Positions 3,821-60,731 of a stretch of DNA of 64,000 nucleotides are shown here, piece after piece. Under the pieces are notes generated by a model, which did no database searches, was not told the DNA's origin, and worked only from the letters and a program-made list of their open reading frames with translations. The translations under genes and the position numbers were made by a program. This stretch comes from Vibrio fluvialis (GTDB lineage Bacteria > Pseudomonadota > Gammaproteobacteria > Enterobacterales > Vibrionaceae): positions 2,108,001-2,172,000 of the forward strand of contig NZ_UHIP01000001.1 in the NCBI RefSeq assembly GCF_900460245.1, written 5' to 3'. Every line of letters starts with the position of its first letter. The stretch's first letter is position 1.

Positions 3821-5485
3821 ATGTGTTCTATCTTCGGTATTTTAGACATTAAAAGTGACGCCGCCACACTTCGCCCTGTGGCTTTGGAAATGTCTAAAAA
3901 ACTTCGTCACCGTGGCCCGGACTGGTCAGGTATCTACGCATCAGACCGCGCAATTCTTGCTCACGAACGTCTGGCCATCGTAGGTCTGAATAGTGGCGCG
4001 CAACCTCTTTATAGCCCAGATAGAAAACTTATCCTTGCGGTAAACGGCGAGATCTATAACCACAAAGAAATCCGTGCACGCTACGCAGGTAAGTATGAAT
4101 TTCAAACCGATTCTGACTGTGAAGTGATTCTGGCCCTGTATCAGGATAAAGGCGCAGATTTGCTGGAAGAGCTAAACGGTATCTTTGCTTTCGTTCTGTA
4201 CGACGAAGAAAAAGACGAGTATCTGGTCGGTCGCGACCACATCGGTATCATTCCGCTGTACCAAGGTCACGATGAACACGGCAACTACTATGTGGCTTCA
4301 GAAATGAAGGCTCTGGTTCCAGTATGTAAAACCATCAGCGAATTTCCTCCAGGCTGTTCATACAGCTCAAAAGATGCGGAACCAAAACGTTACTACACCC
4401 GTGATTGGAACGAATTTGACGCAGTCAAAGACAACGTCAGCAGTAAAGAAGATCTGACCAAGGCGTTGGAAGATGCGGTTAAACGTCAGCTGATGACCGA
4501 CGTACCTTACGGCGTATTGTTATCTGGTGGCCTAGATTCATCGATCACATCAGCAATCGCAAAACGTTTTGCGGCAATGCGTATCGAAGATGATGAGAAA
4601 TCCGCAGCATGGTGGCCACAATTGCACTCGTTTGCTATCGGTCTTGAAGGCGCGCCTGACCTGAAGGCCGCGCGTGAAGTCGCAGACAAACTAGGCACGG
4701 TTCACCATGAAATGACGTACACCGTTCAGGAAGGTCTGGATGCGATTCGTGACGTGATCTACCACATCGAAACCTATGATGTAACGACAATCCGTGCGTC
4801 TACGCCAATGTTCCTGATGGGCCGTAAGATCAAAGCTATGGGTATCAAAATGGTACTCTCCGGTGAAGGTGCAGACGAAATCTTCGGTGGTTACCTATAC
4901 TTCCACAAAGCACCAAACGCGAAAGAGTTCCACGAAGAGACGGTGCGTAAACTGCTGGCTCTGAATATGTTTGACTGCGCCCGTGCAAACAAATCTCTGG
5001 CTGCCTGGGGGGTGGAAGGTCGTGTACCATTCCTGGACAAAGAGTTCATCGACGTTGCAATGCGCCTAAACCCAGCAGACAAAATGTGTGGCAACGGCAA
5101 AATGGAGAAACACATTCTGCGTGAATGCTTCCAACACTATCTACCAGATTCAATCGCGTGGCGTCAGAAAGAGCAGTTCTCTGATGGCGTAGGCTACAAC
5201 TGGATTGATACTCTGAAAGCCACGGCAGAAGCGAAAGTGACCGATCAACAGATGGAAACGGCGAAATTCCGCTTCCCTTACAACACGCCAACCACCAAAG
5301 AAGGTTACGTGTACCGCGAAATTTTTGAAGAATTGTTCCCACTGGAATCAGCGGCGCGCTGTGTACCAGGAGGCCCTTCAGTCGCGTGTTCATCGGCAAA
5401 AGCAATCGAGTGGGATGAATCATTCAAAAACTGTATCGACCCATCAGGTCGAGCAGTGAAAGCCGTTCACAACGAAGCATACTAA
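3821..5485 (+). CDS. asnB: Asparagine synthase B (glutamine-hydrolysing)
   Basis: Makes asparagine from aspartate, ATP and glutamine in the cytoplasm. The start gives MCSIFGI, which places the nucleophilic Cys2 of class II glutamine amidotransferases right after the removed methionine. The synthetase half has the PPi-loop SGGLDSS near residues 234-240 and the GEGADEIFGGY motif. The 554 residues match the enterobacterial AsnB length. A GGAAAG ribosome-binding site precedes the start. It appears monocistronic, with its own terminator. Confidence 0.97.
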   Translation: MCSIFGILDIKSDAATLRPVALEMSKKLRHRGPDWSGIYASDRAILAHERLAIVGLNSGAQPLYSPDRKLILAVNGEIYNHKEIRARYAGKYEFQTDSDCEVILALYQDKGADLLEELNGIFAFVLYDEEKDEYLVGRDHIGIIPLYQGHDEHGNYYVASEMKALVPVCKTISEFPPGCSYSSKDAEPKRYYTRDWNEFDAVKDNVSSKEDLTKALEDAVKRQLMTDVPYGVLLSGGLDSSITSAIAKRFAAMRIEDDEKSAAWWPQLHSFAIGLEGAPDLKAAREVADKLGTVHHEMTYTVQEGLDAIRDVIYHIETYDVTTIRASTPMFLMGRKIKAMGIKMVLSGEGADEIFGGYLYFHKAPNAKEFHEETVRKLLALNMFDCARANKSLAAWGVEGRVPFLDKEFIDVAMRLNPADKMCGNGKMEKHILRECFQHYLPDSIAWRQKEQFSDGVGYNWIDTLKATAEAKVTDQQMETAKFRFPYNTPTTKEGYVYREIFEELFPLESAARCVPGGPSVACSSAKAIEWDESFKNCIDPSGRAVKAVHNEAY

Positions 5486-12188: not shown

Positions 12189-12326
12189 GATTATCCTCTA
12201 TCCGTATTTTTATCAAGGAAGATAAAAGCCCGTCAGTTCAAAAGTCGTATTTTAATTTGTTAACAAGGAAGACAATCTGGGTAGTTGATAGTCCAAGCTC
12301 TAATACTAATTAAAAAGAAGATATCG

Positions 12327-13190
12327 ATGAGTAACACAGGCACAAAGTTCATTCTTGCTGATAGATTTACTTTCGACCCAACGAGCAATTCGCTAGTAGA
12401 CAAAGACGCTGATAACGAGAATGTTCGTCTTGGAAGTAATGAAAGCCGTATTCTGTTAATGCTTTCTCAACGCCCTAATGAAGTGATCACCCGCAACGAA
12501 CTTCACGATTTCGTGTGGCGTGAACAAGGTTTTGAAGTCGACGACTCCAGCCTGACTCAAGCCATCTCAACCCTACGTAAAATGCTGAAAGACTCGACCA
12601 AGTCGCCTCAGTTTGTGAAAACGGTTCCAAAACGTGGTTATCAGTTGATCGCGACCGTCGAAAGCGTTCAGCTCGATGCAAGTAAAGATCCTGATGCCAT
12701 CGAGCAGTCAGATGAGTCTTACTCAAGTGCCGTATCCTCTTCAGAACTTGTCAGTCAAGCTGCTGTTTCTGAAGCAGTTATTACTCAGACGTCGCCTTCT
12801 GTAGACTCGACACCTGCGGCACCAAAACCACGAATGGATCTGTTCACTAAATTGATTCTGTTGGTTGCCGTCATACTGCCTATTTGTGTCATTTTGTTTA
12901 CGACGCCTTCGCAGTCTAAATTTCGACGCTTGGCAGTGTTCAACGATGTGATTGTCAGCACGCCAATCAATCACCCGGATCTCACGTCGTGGCTGCCGCT
13001 GATTGAAAGCTGCGTAAGAAAATATGGTGAAATGCACACCGGCGAACTGGCCCCCAAAGAAGTCATTGCAACGGGCGGACACAGTAACCAACTGGTGTTG
13101 AATTACATTCACACGCCTCAGTTCTCAGGCGAAAACATCACCTTGAGAATCTTCGCTAACCAAGAAGATGTGAGTAAGATTTGCCAATGA
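12327..13190 (+). CDS. toxR: ToxR, membrane-anchored transcription regulator
   Basis: Inner-membrane one-component regulator that controls porin and, in pathogens, virulence genes, responding to bile and osmolarity. Start chosen at 12327 (MSNTGTKFILADRF) behind an AAAGAAG site; an upstream in-frame codon at 12285 would add 14 unlikely residues. Of 287 residues, an OmpR-type winged helix covers about 25-110 (SNESRILLMLSQ ... VKTVPKRGYQL), a variable proline-rich tether follows, one membrane helix lies at about 174-193, and the periplasmic domain has two cysteines (near 229 and at 286) that pair in homologues. Confidence 0.96.
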   Translation: MSNTGTKFILADRFTFDPTSNSLVDKDADNENVRLGSNESRILLMLSQRPNEVITRNELHDFVWREQGFEVDDSSLTQAISTLRKMLKDSTKSPQFVKTVPKRGYQLIATVESVQLDASKDPDAIEQSDESYSSAVSSSELVSQAAVSEAVITQTSPSVDSTPAAPKPRMDLFTKLILLVAVILPICVILFTTPSQSKFRRLAVFNDVIVSTPINHPDLTSWLPLIESCVRKYGEMHTGELAPKEVIATGGHSNQLVLNYIHTPQFSGENITLRIFANQEDVSKICQ

Positions 13191-13201
13191 AGAGTCATAC
13201 C

Positions 13202-13723
13202 ATGAACCGTAAATTCGCCTCTTTCCTGCTGTTTATCTCTGCTGCGTTCAGTGCTTGGTTCTACTGGGGCAGCGATCTTAAAATCGAACAGGTTCTGACC
13301 TCCCGAGAGTGGCAATCCAAAATGGTCACCCTGATTGGCAATAAGCAGCAGAACGATTCGGTCGGCCCTCTACGCCGCGTGGACATGACTTCCAACGTCA
13401 AATACTTGCCGAACGGCACTTACGTGCGAGTATCGATCGTCAAGCTGTATGCGGTTGATAAAACGGTGCCGGAGGACGTGATCAATATTTCCGAATCGGG
13501 CGACTGGGACGTCAGTGACAATTATCTGCTGGTATCACCCACTGAATTTAAAGACGTTTCATCAACACAGAGCAAAGACTTTACGCCACAACAACTCGAC
13601 CTGATCACCCAACTGTTTAAGATGGATTCAGAACAGAGCCGTCGCATTGACATTGTGAACGAGAAAACGCTGCTACTCACCAGCCTGAATCACGGTTCGA
13701 CGGTGCTGTTTAGTAACGGTTAA
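13202..13723 (+). CDS. toxS: ToxS, periplasmic partner of ToxR
   Basis: Stabilises ToxR and takes part in bile-salt sensing through the ToxR periplasmic domain. Start chosen at 13202 (MNRKFASFLLF), with AGAG seven bases upstream, giving 173 residues as in V. cholerae ToxS. Start codons at 13187 (overlapping the toxR stop as ATGA) or TTG 13181 are in frame and possible. One N-terminal membrane anchor (residues 5-20), then the conserved YWGSDLKIEQVL segment. Directly downstream of toxR and surely cotranscribed. Confidence 0.94.
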   Translation: MNRKFASFLLFISAAFSAWFYWGSDLKIEQVLTSREWQSKMVTLIGNKQQNDSVGPLRRVDMTSNVKYLPNGTYVRVSIVKLYAVDKTVPEDVINISESGDWDVSDNYLLVSPTEFKDVSSTQSKDFTPQQLDLITQLFKMDSEQSRRIDIVNEKTLLLTSLNHGSTVLFSNG

Positions 13724-14084: not shown

Positions 14085-14110
14085 TTAAGGGCACCCATCG
14101 GTGCCCTTAA
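14085..14110. terminator. Bidirectional hairpin between the SelW-like gene and yfcE
   Basis: TTAAGGGCACC-CATC-GGTGCCCTTAA, a perfect 11-bp stem between convergent genes. The T-run is short in both directions, so efficiency may be modest. Confidence 0.75.
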
Positions 14111-14116
14111 TTGTCT

Positions 14117-14668
14117 TTACGCGCGAGTATCGGTTTGAGCAATGACATCGCCATCAAAGCTGCACACCTCAATGATACCGTGACGAAAACGGCCAAAACT
14201 GGCGGCAAAACCATTACGGGGAAAAGTCACGGATCCCGGATTAAACAGGTAGTTATGTGGTTGTTTTTCCGCTACCGGCACATGGGTGTGTCCGTGCACC
14301 AGTACATCCCCCTCTTTAAGGGGTGGTAGCTTATTCTGGTTGTACAGATGTCCGTGAGTGAGAAACAAACGCTGCCCAGACTCCAGAATGACCCAGGCGT
14401 AGTCCGCCATCATCGGAAACGTCAGTAACATCTGGTCGACTTCACTGTCACAATTTCCCCGCACCGCAATAATGCGATCAGCAAATGCATTGAGCCGCTC
14501 AGCGACAGCTGGCGGATTGTAACCTTCTGGAATGGGGTTTCTCGGCCCATGATTAAGAATATCACCCAGTAAAACCAGCGTATCGGCACCCGATTGCTGA
14601 TACGCTAGCAAGACGCGTTCGGTGGCTGGCAGTGAACCGTGTAGATCTGAAGCAAAAAATAATTCCAT
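14117..14668 (-). CDS. yfcE: YfcE-like metallophosphodiesterase
   Basis: Calcineurin-like phosphoesterase; E. coli YfcE hydrolyses phosphodiesters in vitro with manganese, with no known physiological substrate. The 183 residues carry the five metal motifs in order: SDLHG, LLGDILNHGPRN, VRGNCD, LTHGH and VHGHTHVP. It lies 45 bases downstream of the CBS protein on the same strand, so it may be the last gene of the DUF1538-PII-CBS block, or be expressed separately. Note that yfcH, its genomic companion in some species, lies only 3 kb away. Confidence 0.92.
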   Translation of the reverse strand: MELFFASDLHGSLPATERVLLAYQQSGADTLVLLGDILNHGPRNPIPEGYNPPAVAERLNAFADRIIAVRGNCDSEVDQMLLTFPMMADYAWVILESGQRLFLTHGHLYNQNKLPPLKEGDVLVHGHTHVPVAEKQPHNYLFNPGSVTFPRNGFAASFGRFRHGIIEVCSFDGDVIAQTDTRA

Positions 14669-14713: not shown

Positions 14714-15121
14714 TTATTCGTCATCTCTCGCCATGCCGTTGATCACGATATTGTTGTAACTGACCATGCCAATCACTTTACCATGTTCAATGACTGGCGC
14801 CCGGCTGATCCCAAATCGTTCAAACAGCCGCGCGCAATATTTGACGTTCATATCCGGCGAAACCGTCAGCGCTGGCTTGGTCATGATTTCGTAAATGTTG
14901 GTACGCTTTGGTGAGCGGTTTTTGGCCAACACTTTCTTGGCGATATCGTTCATCAACACAATGCCAAATTCGTCATCTTCGTGACGTTTGTTGACGATCA
15001 AGGCTTTTACCTCGTACTTTTTCGCCAGACAGATCCCTTCATGAACCGTGGTTAAACCGTCCACCATCACGTAGGTATTTGCCATCACGTCGCGCACATG
15101 GATTTTGTCTTCACGATTCAT
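14714..15121 (-). CDS. CBS-domain-pair protein of the DUF1538 block
   Basis: The 135 residues consist of one tandem CBS pair (Bateman module), the kind of domain that binds AMP, ATP or S-adenosylmethionine. Typical features: VRDVMANTYVMVDGLTTVHEGI in repeat one, and IYEIMTKPALTVSPD with SRAPVIEHGKVIGMVSYNN in repeat two. There is no other domain, so it must act on a partner. Its ATG overlaps the stop of the upstream PII gene by 4 bases. Inference: it is a second ligand sensor of the neighbouring membrane proteins. Confidence 0.85.
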   Translation of the reverse strand: MNREDKIHVRDVMANTYVMVDGLTTVHEGICLAKKYEVKALIVNKRHEDDEFGIVLMNDIAKKVLAKNRSPKRTNIYEIMTKPALTVSPDMNVKYCARLFERFGISRAPVIEHGKVIGMVSYNNIVINGMARDDE

Positions 15122-15471
15122 AGGTTGTCCTCGACTACTTTGGTTAATGTTGCCACCTGATGCGCCACTCCCACGGCATCCTCAATGTCGATTTGAATAG
15201 CGATGCCCTGCCCGGATTCCTGATCAAACTCGCCCACTTCACAAATTGTCTCCAGAATGTGACGCGACAAATGCTCTTCCACCATCAGCAGCACCACGTC
15301 TTTCTGCACCTCCAACGTCAAACCAAAGAAGGTGCGTTTTTTATTCAGTCCCTCTCCGCGAGCGTTATTGATAACAGTTGCACCAGTCGCCCCGGCATTA
15401 CGCGCGGCGTCGAGCACGACATCAGTTTTGCTGTCTTCAACAAAGGCGAGTATCAGTTTAAACCTCATCAT
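15118..15471 (-). CDS. Divergent PII-family signalling protein
   Basis: The 117 residues have the PII ferredoxin-like pattern ([24 protein letters not shown] with GATGATVINNARGEG), but the classic T-loop tyrosine region and the B-loop of GlnB/GlnK are absent: the middle is NKKRTFFGLTLEVQKDVVLLMV. It is therefore not GlnB or GlnK. Its start lies inside the 3' end of the upstream DUF1538 gene (14-base overlap) and its end overlaps the CBS gene. PII proteins commonly gate membrane transporters, so regulation of the DUF1538 pair is the most likely role (inference). Confidence 0.82.
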   Translation of the reverse strand: MMRFKLILAFVEDSKTDVVLDAARNAGATGATVINNARGEGLNKKRTFFGLTLEVQKDVVLLMVEEHLSRHILETICEVGEFDQESGQGIAIQIDIEDAVGVAHQVATLTKVVEDNL

Positions 15472-16252
15472 CTTGCTCCTTTAGATTCGCTTTTTGATTA
15501 AGCCATTGAGTGATTTGTGCATATCCCATCACCGACATCATCGGGAATAGACTGGCAAAGGCGATGAGGCCAAAGCCATCAATCATCGGATTACGTCCCG
15601 GAACCGTCGACGCCAGTCCCAGCCCCAACGCTGCCACTATCGGTACGGTGACCGTCGATGTGGTGACGCCACCAGAATCGTACGCCAGCGGTACAATCAG
15701 CTTCGGCGAGTAAAACGTTTGAATGACCACCACGATATAGCCCGCGATGATGTAGTACTGAATGGGGTCACCGACCACAATCCGATAACTGCCGAGAGCA
15801 ATACCACACGCGACTCCCAGTGCAACCGCTATCCGTAAACCATTCACTTGAATCGCACCACCGGATACCTGATTGGCTTTGATAGCAACCGCTATCAAAG
15901 AGGGTTCGGCTATCGTGGTACTGAAACCAATCAGAAAGGCGAACAGATAAACCCAGTAATAATCCCCCCACTGCAACGTCTGTCCGACACTGAGTCGGAA
16001 CTCTTCAAGAAACTCAGGGTCAGTCAGCTGGCGCGCCATCGTTTTACCCAGCGGAAACAGCGCCAGTTCCAGACCAAGTAAAAACAGCGACAAGCCAAGA
16101 ATCACGTAACCAAAACCAATCAACACTTTTACGGGATTAGTCAGCGGTTTTCTCAGCACCGCAAACTGAAAGCCGAAAATAATCACCGCGATGGGGACAA
16201 TATCCAGAATGGTGGAAAGTAACGTGTCGAAAAAATCTTGTCCGTCGATCAT
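15458..16252 (-). CDS. DUF1538 membrane protein, second of a pair
   Basis: 264-residue polytopic membrane protein. The family hallmarks are clear: TTIAEPSL (residues 112-119), [10 protein letters not shown] (191-200) and [21 protein letters not shown] (219-239). It is a paralogue of the next protein with the same motif order. From memory, a DUF1538 pair in a Halomonas species (UmpAB) was reported to act as a two-component Na+(Li+,K+)/H+ antiporter; assignment here is by family only. The start overlaps the upstream paralogue's stop by 4 bases, indicating tightly coupled translation and a likely heteromeric complex. Confidence 0.88.
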
Positions 16253-16983
16253 GTCACCACCATGCCAAATACCATGACGAACATCATCGGCAGCAGCGAT
16301 GCAAACGCGATCAAGCCAAAGCCATCCAACATAGGATTCCGCTCTTTAATCGATGACGCTAACCCGACACCCAATGCCGTCACCAGCGGCACGGTAATGG
16401 TTGATGTCGTGACACCACCCGAATCGTAGGCAATACCGATGATCGATTCGGGCGCAAACGCAGTCAGGATCACCACGCCGACATAGCCAAACGCAATCAT
16501 GTAGTGAATCGGCCATCCTCTCAGGATCCTCAGTACGCCAATCACAATCGCAAGGCCCACCGATACCGCCACAGTCACCCTCAACCCTTGTGCATAATCG
16601 TGCCGAGCCAGAGGGGTGTCTGCAATCATTCCGCCTTGTGAGGCAACCTTTGCCGCTTCTTCTGCCACCGCGGTCAGCGCGGGTTCCGCAATGGTGGTTC
16701 CGAATCCGAGACAGAAAGCAAAGACTAACAACCAGAATAAGCTACCTTTGCGGGCAAAAGCCTGAGCCATGGACTCTCCGATCGGAAACAGCCCCATTTC
16801 CAGGCCAAAGATGAAAAAAGTGAGCCCGAGCACCACCAGCACCAATCCACTCAGCACGCTCAGCAAATGCGGTAGCGGCTCCTGCAACACAAACAGCTGG
16901 AAAAAAGCAATCACCAGCACAATCGGCATCAAGTCGCGCAAACTGCCCAACATCGCTTTGAGTAATGCTAACGCCCCAGCCAT
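16249..16983 (-). CDS. DUF1538 membrane protein, first of a pair
   Basis: 244 residues from the start at 16983, which has GGAG five bases upstream; an in-frame codon at 17046 would add 21 polar residues without a good ribosome-binding site. Motifs match the partner: TTIAEPAL (96-103), [10 protein letters not shown] (186-195) and [21 protein letters not shown]. It is the promoter-proximal gene of the leftward block of two DUF1538 genes, PII and CBS. The promoter should lie in 16984-17169, shared with divergent yfcH. Confidence 0.88.
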
Positions 16984-17169
16984 AGTCGCTCCGATACAAT
17001 TCCTTACACTTATAATGGCAAAGGATAAATCCACGTGATGTGACACGCTTTACGGGGTGGGTAAAAAGTCATCAAAGGTTAAAAAACAGAATGTTGGCAC
17101 TTAGCAAAGATTCCCTTAAGCTGATCCTCAGGCAGCGGCAGCTATACTTAAGCGAAGCAAGGAGGCGAC

Positions 17170-19256: not shown

Positions 19257-20111
19257 ATGCAATCACCTCATATTACTGACGTAACCCAACACAACTTTCG
19301 CGAAGTGATAGAACGTTCGGCCTCCACGCCCATCCTGTTCTATTTCTGGGCACCGATGAGTGACGAAAGCGCTCAACTTATTCCAGCGCTACAACAGCTT
19401 ACTCAGCAATATGACGGTGCTTTCCAACTGGCACAATTGAACTGTCAGGAAGAGCAAGCCATCGCAGCACAATTTGGCATTCAGGCGTTGCCTACGATCG
19501 CGCTGTTCATTAACGGCCAGCCGGTCGATGGTTTGGGTGGCCCGCAGCCGATTGCCGCCATTCAAGAGATGCTTGACCGCCATTTACCAAGCCAAGACGA
19601 ACGAACCTTGCAACAGGCGCTGACTCTGGTTCAAAACCAGCAGCAGGCTCAGGCGCTGCCACTGCTTCTGTCCTTGAGTGATGAATGGAAACGTAAAGGT
19701 GATGCGAAGCTGGCATTAGCCGACTGCTTCCTTGCAACCCAGCAATTCGAAGCGGCTAAAGCTGAGCTCGCCGCCATACCACTGGAATACCAGGACGGCT
19801 ACTACAAGAGTTTGGTGGCCCGCCTGGAACTGCATGAGCAAGCGGCTGACAGCCCGGAAATTCAGGCGCTGGAAAGTACATTTGCACAAGACAATTCCAA
19901 CGCAAAAGTAGCGATTGAATTAGCCACTCAATATCATCAGGTGCAACGTGACGAGGAAGCTCTTGAGCTACTGTGGTCGTTCCTCAAGCGCGATCTGAAT
20001 ACACTTGATGGCGATATGAAGAAGATCTTTATGGACATCCTTAACGCGCTTGGCCAGAGTAATAGCACAGCCAGCCGCTATCGCAGACAGCTTTATTCGT
20101 TGCTTTATTAA
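19257..20111 (+). CDS. cnoX: CnoX (YbbN), thioredoxin-fold co-chaperone
   Basis: Cytosolic holdase that passes clients to GroEL and DnaK. 284 residues, same as E. coli; N-terminal thioredoxin domain (1-110) then TPR-like repeats to the C-terminal SRYRRQLYSLLY. Where thioredoxins have WCGPC this protein has WAPMSDES: the E. coli SxxC motif (Cys38 as I remember it) is SxxS here, while Cys63 (LAQLNC), the residue reported to trap substrates, is kept. Its neighbours qmcA and nfeD follow in the same order as ybbN-qmcA-ybbJ relatives in enterobacteria. Confidence 0.92.
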   Translation: MQSPHITDVTQHNFREVIERSASTPILFYFWAPMSDESAQLIPALQQLTQQYDGAFQLAQLNCQEEQAIAAQFGIQALPTIALFINGQPVDGLGGPQPIAAIQEMLDRHLPSQDERTLQQALTLVQNQQQAQALPLLLSLSDEWKRKGDAKLALADCFLATQQFEAAKAELAAIPLEYQDGYYKSLVARLELHEQAADSPEIQALESTFAQDNSNAKVAIELATQYHQVQRDEEALELLWSFLKRDLNTLDGDMKKIFMDILNALGQSNSTASRYRRQLYSLLY

Positions 20112-60184: not shown

Positions 60185-60269
<85 letters not shown>

Positions 60270-60338
60270 TATTCTTCTCACTAGAGAAAAACTTGATTGA
60301 TGATGTTGGGAAAACGTCAGTTAAGTATAAAAACCCCT

Positions 60339-60423
<85 letters not shown>

Positions 60424-60492
60424 TATTCTTCTCACTAGAGAAAAACTTGATTGACGATGTTGGGAAAACGTCAGTTAAGTATAAAAATCCCT

Positions 60493-60577
<85 letters not shown>

Positions 60578-60646
60578 TATTCTTCTCGCTAGAGAAAAAC
60601 TTGATTGGCGATGTTGGGAAAACGTCAGTTAAGTATAAAAACCCCT

Positions 60647-60731
<85 letters not shown>

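Follow-up and report, generated by a model that had tools for sequence, protein, structure and literature searches.

The closest described counterpart of the locus analyzed here is UmpAB of Halomonas zhaodongensis, which, according to its original report (PMC5484666), is likewise encoded by paired, overlapping DUF1538 paralogues, each predicted to possess seven membrane segments. As stated there, UmpA and UmpB form a heterodimer exchanging Na+, Li+ and K+ for H+ with an optimum at pH 9, co-immunoprecipitate, and carry out antiport in vesicles, with a K0.5 given for each of the three cations. The UmpAB homologues named in the report already include the pairs of V. ezurae and V. xiamenensis, and no regulator is described in it (its main text contains neither PII nor P-II nor CBS). 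DUF1538 is also one of the Pfam families that PMC13255231 tabulates as being tied to growth pH. P-II and CBS are absent from that paper, as well as from PMC12093952 and PMC10030654.

Membrane transporters accompanied by PII proteins are, on the other hand, known: a PII-fold gene adjoins a membrane transporter gene in AmtB-GlnK, and a transporter and a divergent PII are encoded within a single operon in SbtA-SbtB (PMC8352866). That paper relates that SbtB senses cAMP versus AMP, that its T-loop enters the SbtA cleft from the cytosol as the GlnK T-loop enters AmtB, and that an inhibitory effect of SbtB on SbtA was seen in E. coli, with a report cited there finding SbtA control in vivo to be independent of SbtB. 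Transporter-PII operons as such are, then, nothing new; the locus presented below differs from those described in its transporter family, in its PII subfamily and in having a CBS partner. No link of UmpAB/DUF1538 with PII or CBS was found in the literature searched, most subscription papers lying outside it, and within these bounds the remark of a preliminary description of this DNA that the regulatory half appears undescribed holds.

The cassette and its surroundings

The window, i.e., the whole stretch of 64,000 nucleotides of Vibrio fluvialis DNA that was analyzed, contains four real open reading frames at the positions the preliminary description had assigned to them, all on the minus strand. 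These are an umpA-like gene (16249..16983; PF07556 at 4.7e-70 and 228.4 bits, NF041627 at 381 bits and E 1.8e-114), an umpB-like gene (15458..16252; PF07556 at 7.8e-68 and 235.6 bits, NF041628 at 355.5 bits and E 1.4e-106), a gene of a DUF1538-linked subfamily of the PII superfamily (15118..15471 or 15468; P-II, PF00543, at 2.4e-10) and a gene for a stand-alone CBS pair (14714..15121; PF00571 at 2.8e-16). The umpA-like gene is taken to start at the ATG at 16983, preceded by GGAG at 16992-16989, with the open frame extending further up to a GTG at 17046. The junction overlaps of 4, 14 and 4 bases given previously are correct for the starts assumed at the time; the PII gene, however, which has an AGGAG at 15480-15476, probably starts at its second ATG (15468), resulting in a product of 116 aa and an umpB/PII overlap of 11 bases. 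An 11-base overlap is also what 12 of the 22 loci named Vibrio among those compared show when the longest starts are taken mechanically, the other ten being different.

Both membrane proteins exceed the PF07556 cut-off (22.6 bits) with the profile covered almost fully, and theirs is the one DUF1538 pair that a genome-wide search retrieved. In NCBIfam they match best to UmpA and UmpB, subunits of a Na,Li,K/H(+) antiporter, without reaching the respective equivalog cut-offs (381 vs 490 bits for NF041627 and 355.5 vs 500 for NF041628), so that the pair is filed here as UmpAB-like rather than as an equivalog; the UmpA equivalog cut-off was likewise reached in none of 74 chosen genomes and in none of 20 genomes of the family of G309. 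The genome holds three PF00543 genes, of which the two outside the cassette are GlnB/GlnK-like and have the usual motifs.

Starting 45 bases beyond the end of the CBS gene, a yfcE-like phosphodiesterase gene (14117..14668, minus strand; NF006988 at 255 bits vs a cut-off of 117) may share the cassette transcript in the window. It was considered as a fifth cassette member and rejected for not being conserved, a yfcE homologue (E 1e-20) being found in 24 of the 80 best-scoring loci vs 0 of the 80 loci of the gammaproteobacterial set (both sets are defined below). Located 3' of it is a terminator-like stem of 11 pairs (14085..14110), a possible end of the minus-strand transcript; it has the longest stem among five such sites, and since 3.6 would be expected in shuffled sequences, such a site is weak by itself. 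Further along the window, a Trans_reg_C regulator gene followed by toxS (12285-13723) lies near the cassette, and the two are presumably toxRS, with toxR assigned by its position. This landmark fits a Vibrio, and Vibrio is also where the closest named PII proteins come from. Four tandem tRNA-Tyr genes, all on one strand and 154 bases apart, are found at 60185-60731.

Conservation of the gene order

PF07556 was present in 125 of the 369 gammaproteobacterial genomes sampled (that of the window included), and a set of 80 loci was drawn from 97 of these 125 genomes, with 16 loci whose match seemingly lay near a contig end and a same-genus duplicate (G169) being left out. Using profiles grown from the window proteins, PII was detected in 79 of the 80 loci and CBS in 77; in 77 loci the DUF1538 gene(s), PII and CBS are adjacent and on one strand: 67 of these have two DUF1538 genes, eight a single fused DUF1538 gene of about 500 aa, and two an extra gene. 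The overlap of PII and CBS is exactly 4 bases in 57 of the 77. As for the three exceptions, the contig ends 142 bases past the DUF1538 pair in one (L109), a second DUF1538 gene lies downstream of PII and is followed by the contig end in another (L084), and PII is present with CBS being absent in the third (L107). The preliminary description had proposed looking for this gene order in other genomes, and its retention there in 77 of 80 loci, always on the same strand, excludes a chance arrangement.

A second set consisted of the 80 best-scoring matches of a scan of named genomes (and is, as such, not a random draw), which came from Gammaproteobacteria or from unplaced Proteobacteria/bacterial MAGs and overlaps the first set at least once (L036 = L163). 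PII and CBS follow DUF1538 in 79 of these best-scoring loci, and in the exception (L190) the contig runs on for another 666 bases, which contain no PII. When neighbouring open reading frames of at least 100 aa and at most 3.5 kb away were clustered (E 1e-10, 50% coverage), no further family was common to more than 18 of the 80 loci of the gammaproteobacterial set. Five neighbours from the window, namely yfcE, yfcH, the Rdx gene, the SDR gene and a gene at 19257 labelled thioredoxin-like by eye, had no match in any of those 80 loci at 1e-20, and had matches in 19 to 32 of the 80 best-scoring ones. With PII present in 79 of 80 loci in either set, the overlaps lead us to infer that the PII gene belongs to the transporter operon.

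Some individual loci depart from the common layout. In L085 a transposase-like open frame (judged by eye; 3904-5158) is located between umpB and PII, breaking the overlap, with PII and CBS kept; L203 shows the order PII-CBS-fused DUF1538; and L207 is a broken DUF1538-PII locus containing DUF1538 pieces, one of them PII-like at its C-terminal end, and after these a PII open reading frame of its own.

Co-occurrence of DUF1538 and PII

Among 118 genomes of the genus (own genome included) searched with PII profile A2 (E 1e-6) and PF07556 (E 0.001), DUF1538 and PII were each found in 94, and these were the identical 94 genomes. At the class level, for which 185 genomes were taken as G000-G184 (as inferred from the numbering), DUF1538 was found in 58 and PII in 57, with both in 56 of the 59 genomes having either. 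Two of the remaining three (G003 and G144) have divergent PIIs adjoining DUF1538 (L192, L193) that the strict profile had missed. The last, G098, was weighed as a counter-example and set aside: among the 185 it is the sole genome with PII and no DUF1538, and its locus (L211), which carries both PII and CBS, has no more than 120 bases of contig upstream of PII. The possibility raised in the preliminary description that PII mostly occurs without DUF1538 is, therefore, not what was found, given 94 of 94 genomes in the genus, 56 of 59 in the class and an explanation for each of the other three. Adjacency was verified in the fetched loci, some fragmented genomes (e.g., G032) having both genes on different contigs. 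As neighbouring genes are often lost together, joint presence or absence speaks for linkage rather than for contact, and the joint loss of DUF1538 and PII may reflect mere gene neighbourhood.

The membrane pair and its predicted topology

The positive-inside rule relates basic residues to the cytosolic side of a membrane protein. Lysines and arginines were compared in 137 UmpA-UmpB pairs (136 distinct), the window pair showing the same charge bias, over loop ranges that were picked after inspection of the profile. They are more numerous at the N-terminus of UmpA than at that of UmpB in 135 of the 137 pairs (with 2 ties), in the first loop of UmpB than in that of UmpA in 137 of 137, and in the C-terminal tail of UmpB than in that of UmpA in 136 of 137 (with 1 tie), while the summed charge score is opposite in sign in all 137. 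Under the positive-inside rule, this bias would place UmpA as N-in/C-out and UmpB as N-out/C-in, and the existence of natural fusions of the halves together with an odd segment number also implies an opposite orientation, as long as the linker stays on one side of the membrane. The two are, thus, predicted to be antiparallel, with the basic C-terminal tail of UmpB in the cytosol beside the soluble partners. A model of a natural DUF1538 fusion (L101) has no clearly resembling fold in the PDB.

The heteromeric DUF1538 ion transporter put forward in the preliminary description is supported by Halomonas UmpAB (PMC5484666), and the ORF lengths given in that paper also bear on whether the two soluble proteins are needed. 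The 4.2-kb Halomonas clone holds ORFs of ~323 (truncated), 402, 254 and 271 codons, i.e., ~3.76 kb, which leaves ~0.44 kb spare where PII and CBS would need ~0.75 kb. By this arithmetic, the antiport seen with UmpAB in E. coli KNabc occurred without both regulators, and PII and CBS are not needed for transport as such.

The PII and CBS proteins

The window PII belongs to the PII superfamily by its PF00543 score, which is over the cut-off, and by its PII fold; in a Foldseek search, CPII (5d4n) and SbtB (6mm2) ranked behind GlnK1. At the positions of GlnB Y51, Q39, K90, R101 and R103, the functional residues of GlnB/GlnK, it has V, N, I, G and A, respectively, so none of the five residues defining the GlnB/GlnK class is found in it. 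A survey of 159 such PII sequences (157 distinct) yielded the same picture: the K90 position is I in 147 and basic in none, that of R101 is G in all 159 and basic in none, that of R103 is basic in 2, that of Q39 is Q in 13, and that of Y51 is Y in none. The protein had been described as divergent, which is borne out by these replaced ligand residues and by what appears, from the alignments, to be a subfamily separate from GlnB/GlnK, and as being without the T-loop or the B-loop, which stands in part: the T-loop region has five residues fewer and is without GlnB Tyr51 and, in the window, Gln39, and the B-loop has I for K90 but keeps G87 and G89. The subfamily possesses a short conserved loop of its own, R-G-x-G...T-F-x-G-L. 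As the phosphate-binding lysine and arginines of GlnB are missing, sensing is predicted not to be of the GlnB-style ATP/2-oxoglutarate kind. Compared with AmtB-GlnK, the transporter is unrelated and Tyr51, Lys90, Arg101 and Arg103 (in the window also Gln39) are not kept; compared with SbtA-SbtB, the transporter is again unrelated, and the CGPxGC motif of some SbtBs is absent from the window PII.

CBS-CP12 of cyanobacteria, which binds AMP, has a structure (5nmu) that is the nearest solved relative of the cassette CBS protein, matching the window protein at 1.1e-24 over residues 8-127 and the family profile at 1.7e-36. Pfam matches the second CBS motif alone (residues 77-126), the first being supported by the CBS-CP12 alignment, which encompasses both motifs, and the protein is, therefore, a CBS pair as had been proposed. 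In contrast to CBS-CP12, it has no CP12 tail and sits in an antiporter operon. The window protein has D59, presumably the ribose-binding Asp of the first motif, as do 149 of 157 sequences, whereas position 124, its presumable counterpart in the second motif, is D in 92 of 157 and N in 34 of 157, the window protein among the latter.

Fusions, tandem and multi-unit PII variants

Thirteen loci encode long fused DUF1538 proteins of 583-731 aa (the frame being split in L201), and PII units lie beside the fusion in all 13; CBS was found by profile in none of them, with more than 3.6 kb available beyond PII in nine. A tandem pair of different PII genes follows the fused DUF1538 in L197 and L204 and, outside the class, in L227 and L228. 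In four loci (L193, L198, L201 and L205) the place of PII beside the fused DUF1538 is taken by a protein of 384-405 aa, the Pfam scores of which range from 20.1 (below the cut-off) to 45.5 bits. These proteins were scanned for PII units with a broad profile and filters off, the E-values referring to these four sequences only: three PII-like stretches were seen in L205 (27.7, 43.2 and 24.7 bits) and in L193 (8.2, 50.3 and 10.6 bits), the first two were clear (20.7 and 41.8 bits) and the third was not in L201, and the middle one alone was clear (60.4 bits) in L198. The L205 protein is, thus, likely a single-chain pseudo-trimer of PII, and the same is inferred from their sequences for those of L193, L198 and L201.

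Among 20 loci from other Pseudomonadota outside the class, PII was found in 17 and CBS in 6, the three without PII even by the broad profile (L221, L224 and L225) having a DUF1538 pair. Apparent fusions of the cassette domains were considered as proof of contact, and this was dropped: the four DUF1538-PII fusions and, among the best 120 of 319 matches, the PII-CBS fusions (P0125, P0176 and P0187) are all single sequences, and most fusions appear by eye to be products of a frameshift or a deletion, the UmpB-PII ones P0121, P0122 and P0124 being seemingly frame-shifted and P0123 alone reading cleanly.

Discussion

We favour, with a probability of roughly 0.62, a reading of the cassette sequences in which they encode an antiporter of the UmpAB type, exchanging Na+, Li+ and K+ for H+ and probably built from two antiparallel paralogues, along with two proteins likely to regulate it post-translationally, namely the PII protein and the CBS pair. 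UmpA (N-in) and UmpB (N-out) would enclose the ion path as an inverted pair, and a PII trimer would dock on the cytosolic face of UmpAB and lower or gate antiport, the likely contacts being the short conserved PII T-loop (RGEG...TFFGL) and the basic UmpB tail. Gating of the antiporter by PII would most likely resemble that of AmtB by GlnK, with SbtB being thought to gate SbtA likewise. PII would sense a ligand other than ATP/2-oxoglutarate in the GlnB manner, the CBS pair, with CBS-CP12 as its nearest relative, would add an adenylate (AMP/ATP) reading, and proton-consuming cation export would, in this way, be tuned to the energy or cation state of the cell. PII being near-constant and CBS the more dispensable partner, it is PII that is likely in direct contact with the antiporter; and with UmpAB being active on its own, the role of PII would be that of a brake or gate and not of a component needed for transport. 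The activity in E. coli of UmpAB alone (PMC5484666) and the three of 20 outside-class loci without PII both argue against an obligatory lid.

The same two observations would also suit PII and CBS proteins that are co-expressed with the antiporter and act elsewhere, on a cytosolic enzyme or a transcription factor controlling the operon, as an output of ion-stress sensing rather than as part of the transporter, all the more so as transporters are not the only targets of PII proteins, which also regulate many enzymes and transcription factors (PMC4285133). This is nevertheless unlikely to be the case, as PII is retained beside even the most distant fused DUF1538 with no other neighbour being widely common, and as its only occurrence without DUF1538 in the 185 class genomes is the G098 one next to a contig end. 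Equally improbable, in our opinion, is that the true substrate is some other small solute (e.g., an anion, as with SbtA), the metabolism of which PII would sense, and that the antiport in E. coli is a side activity: Na+/H+ antiport has also been reported for several unrelated families (MFS, RDD and UPF0118), no solved structure clearly resembles the DUF1538 pair, and transporters of ammonium and of bicarbonate are known to have a PII at their side, but the vesicle antiport with K0.5 values for three cations (PMC5484666) and the place of DUF1538 among the growth-pH-tied families (PMC13255231) speak for the cations. Least probable of all are PII and CBS as assembly or stability factors holding the half-transporters together instead of ligand-driven switches, for which tight gene overlaps (which favour co-translational assembly) and the lost GlnB phosphate ligands could be cited, since UmpA and UmpB co-immunoprecipitate without either (PMC5484666) and the widely kept D59 of the CBS protein suggests a retained ligand site.

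Returning to the regulated antiporter, a bolder version of it can be sketched from the sequences, albeit tentatively and with more doubt than belief: a new transporter fold, absent from the PDB, in which the antiparallel DUF1538 paralogues would be plugged by a dedicated PII trimer as AmtB and SbtA are, PII representing a novel ligand class devoid of the phosphate site of GlnB and accompanied by a CBS-CP12-like adenylate sensor, with three unequal PII units joined into a single-chain pseudo-trimer in one lineage, and nucleotide state directly gating cation/proton exchange.

DUF1538 is found in about a third of the gammaproteobacterial genomes sampled, yet the functional study in the literature searched treats two proteins only. 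Should PII and CBS be its controls, the antiporter family would possess a metabolic switch of its own, perhaps overlooked because, by the arithmetic on the published ORF lengths, the original Halomonas clone had no room for both genes. With the multi-unit PII chains, the PII sites could be mutated one by one, as those of a homotrimer cannot. If true, the proposal would link Na+/K+ and pH balance with nucleotide state and would offer a simple system of two to four proteins in which to ask how unrelated transporters came to be gated by PII proteins.
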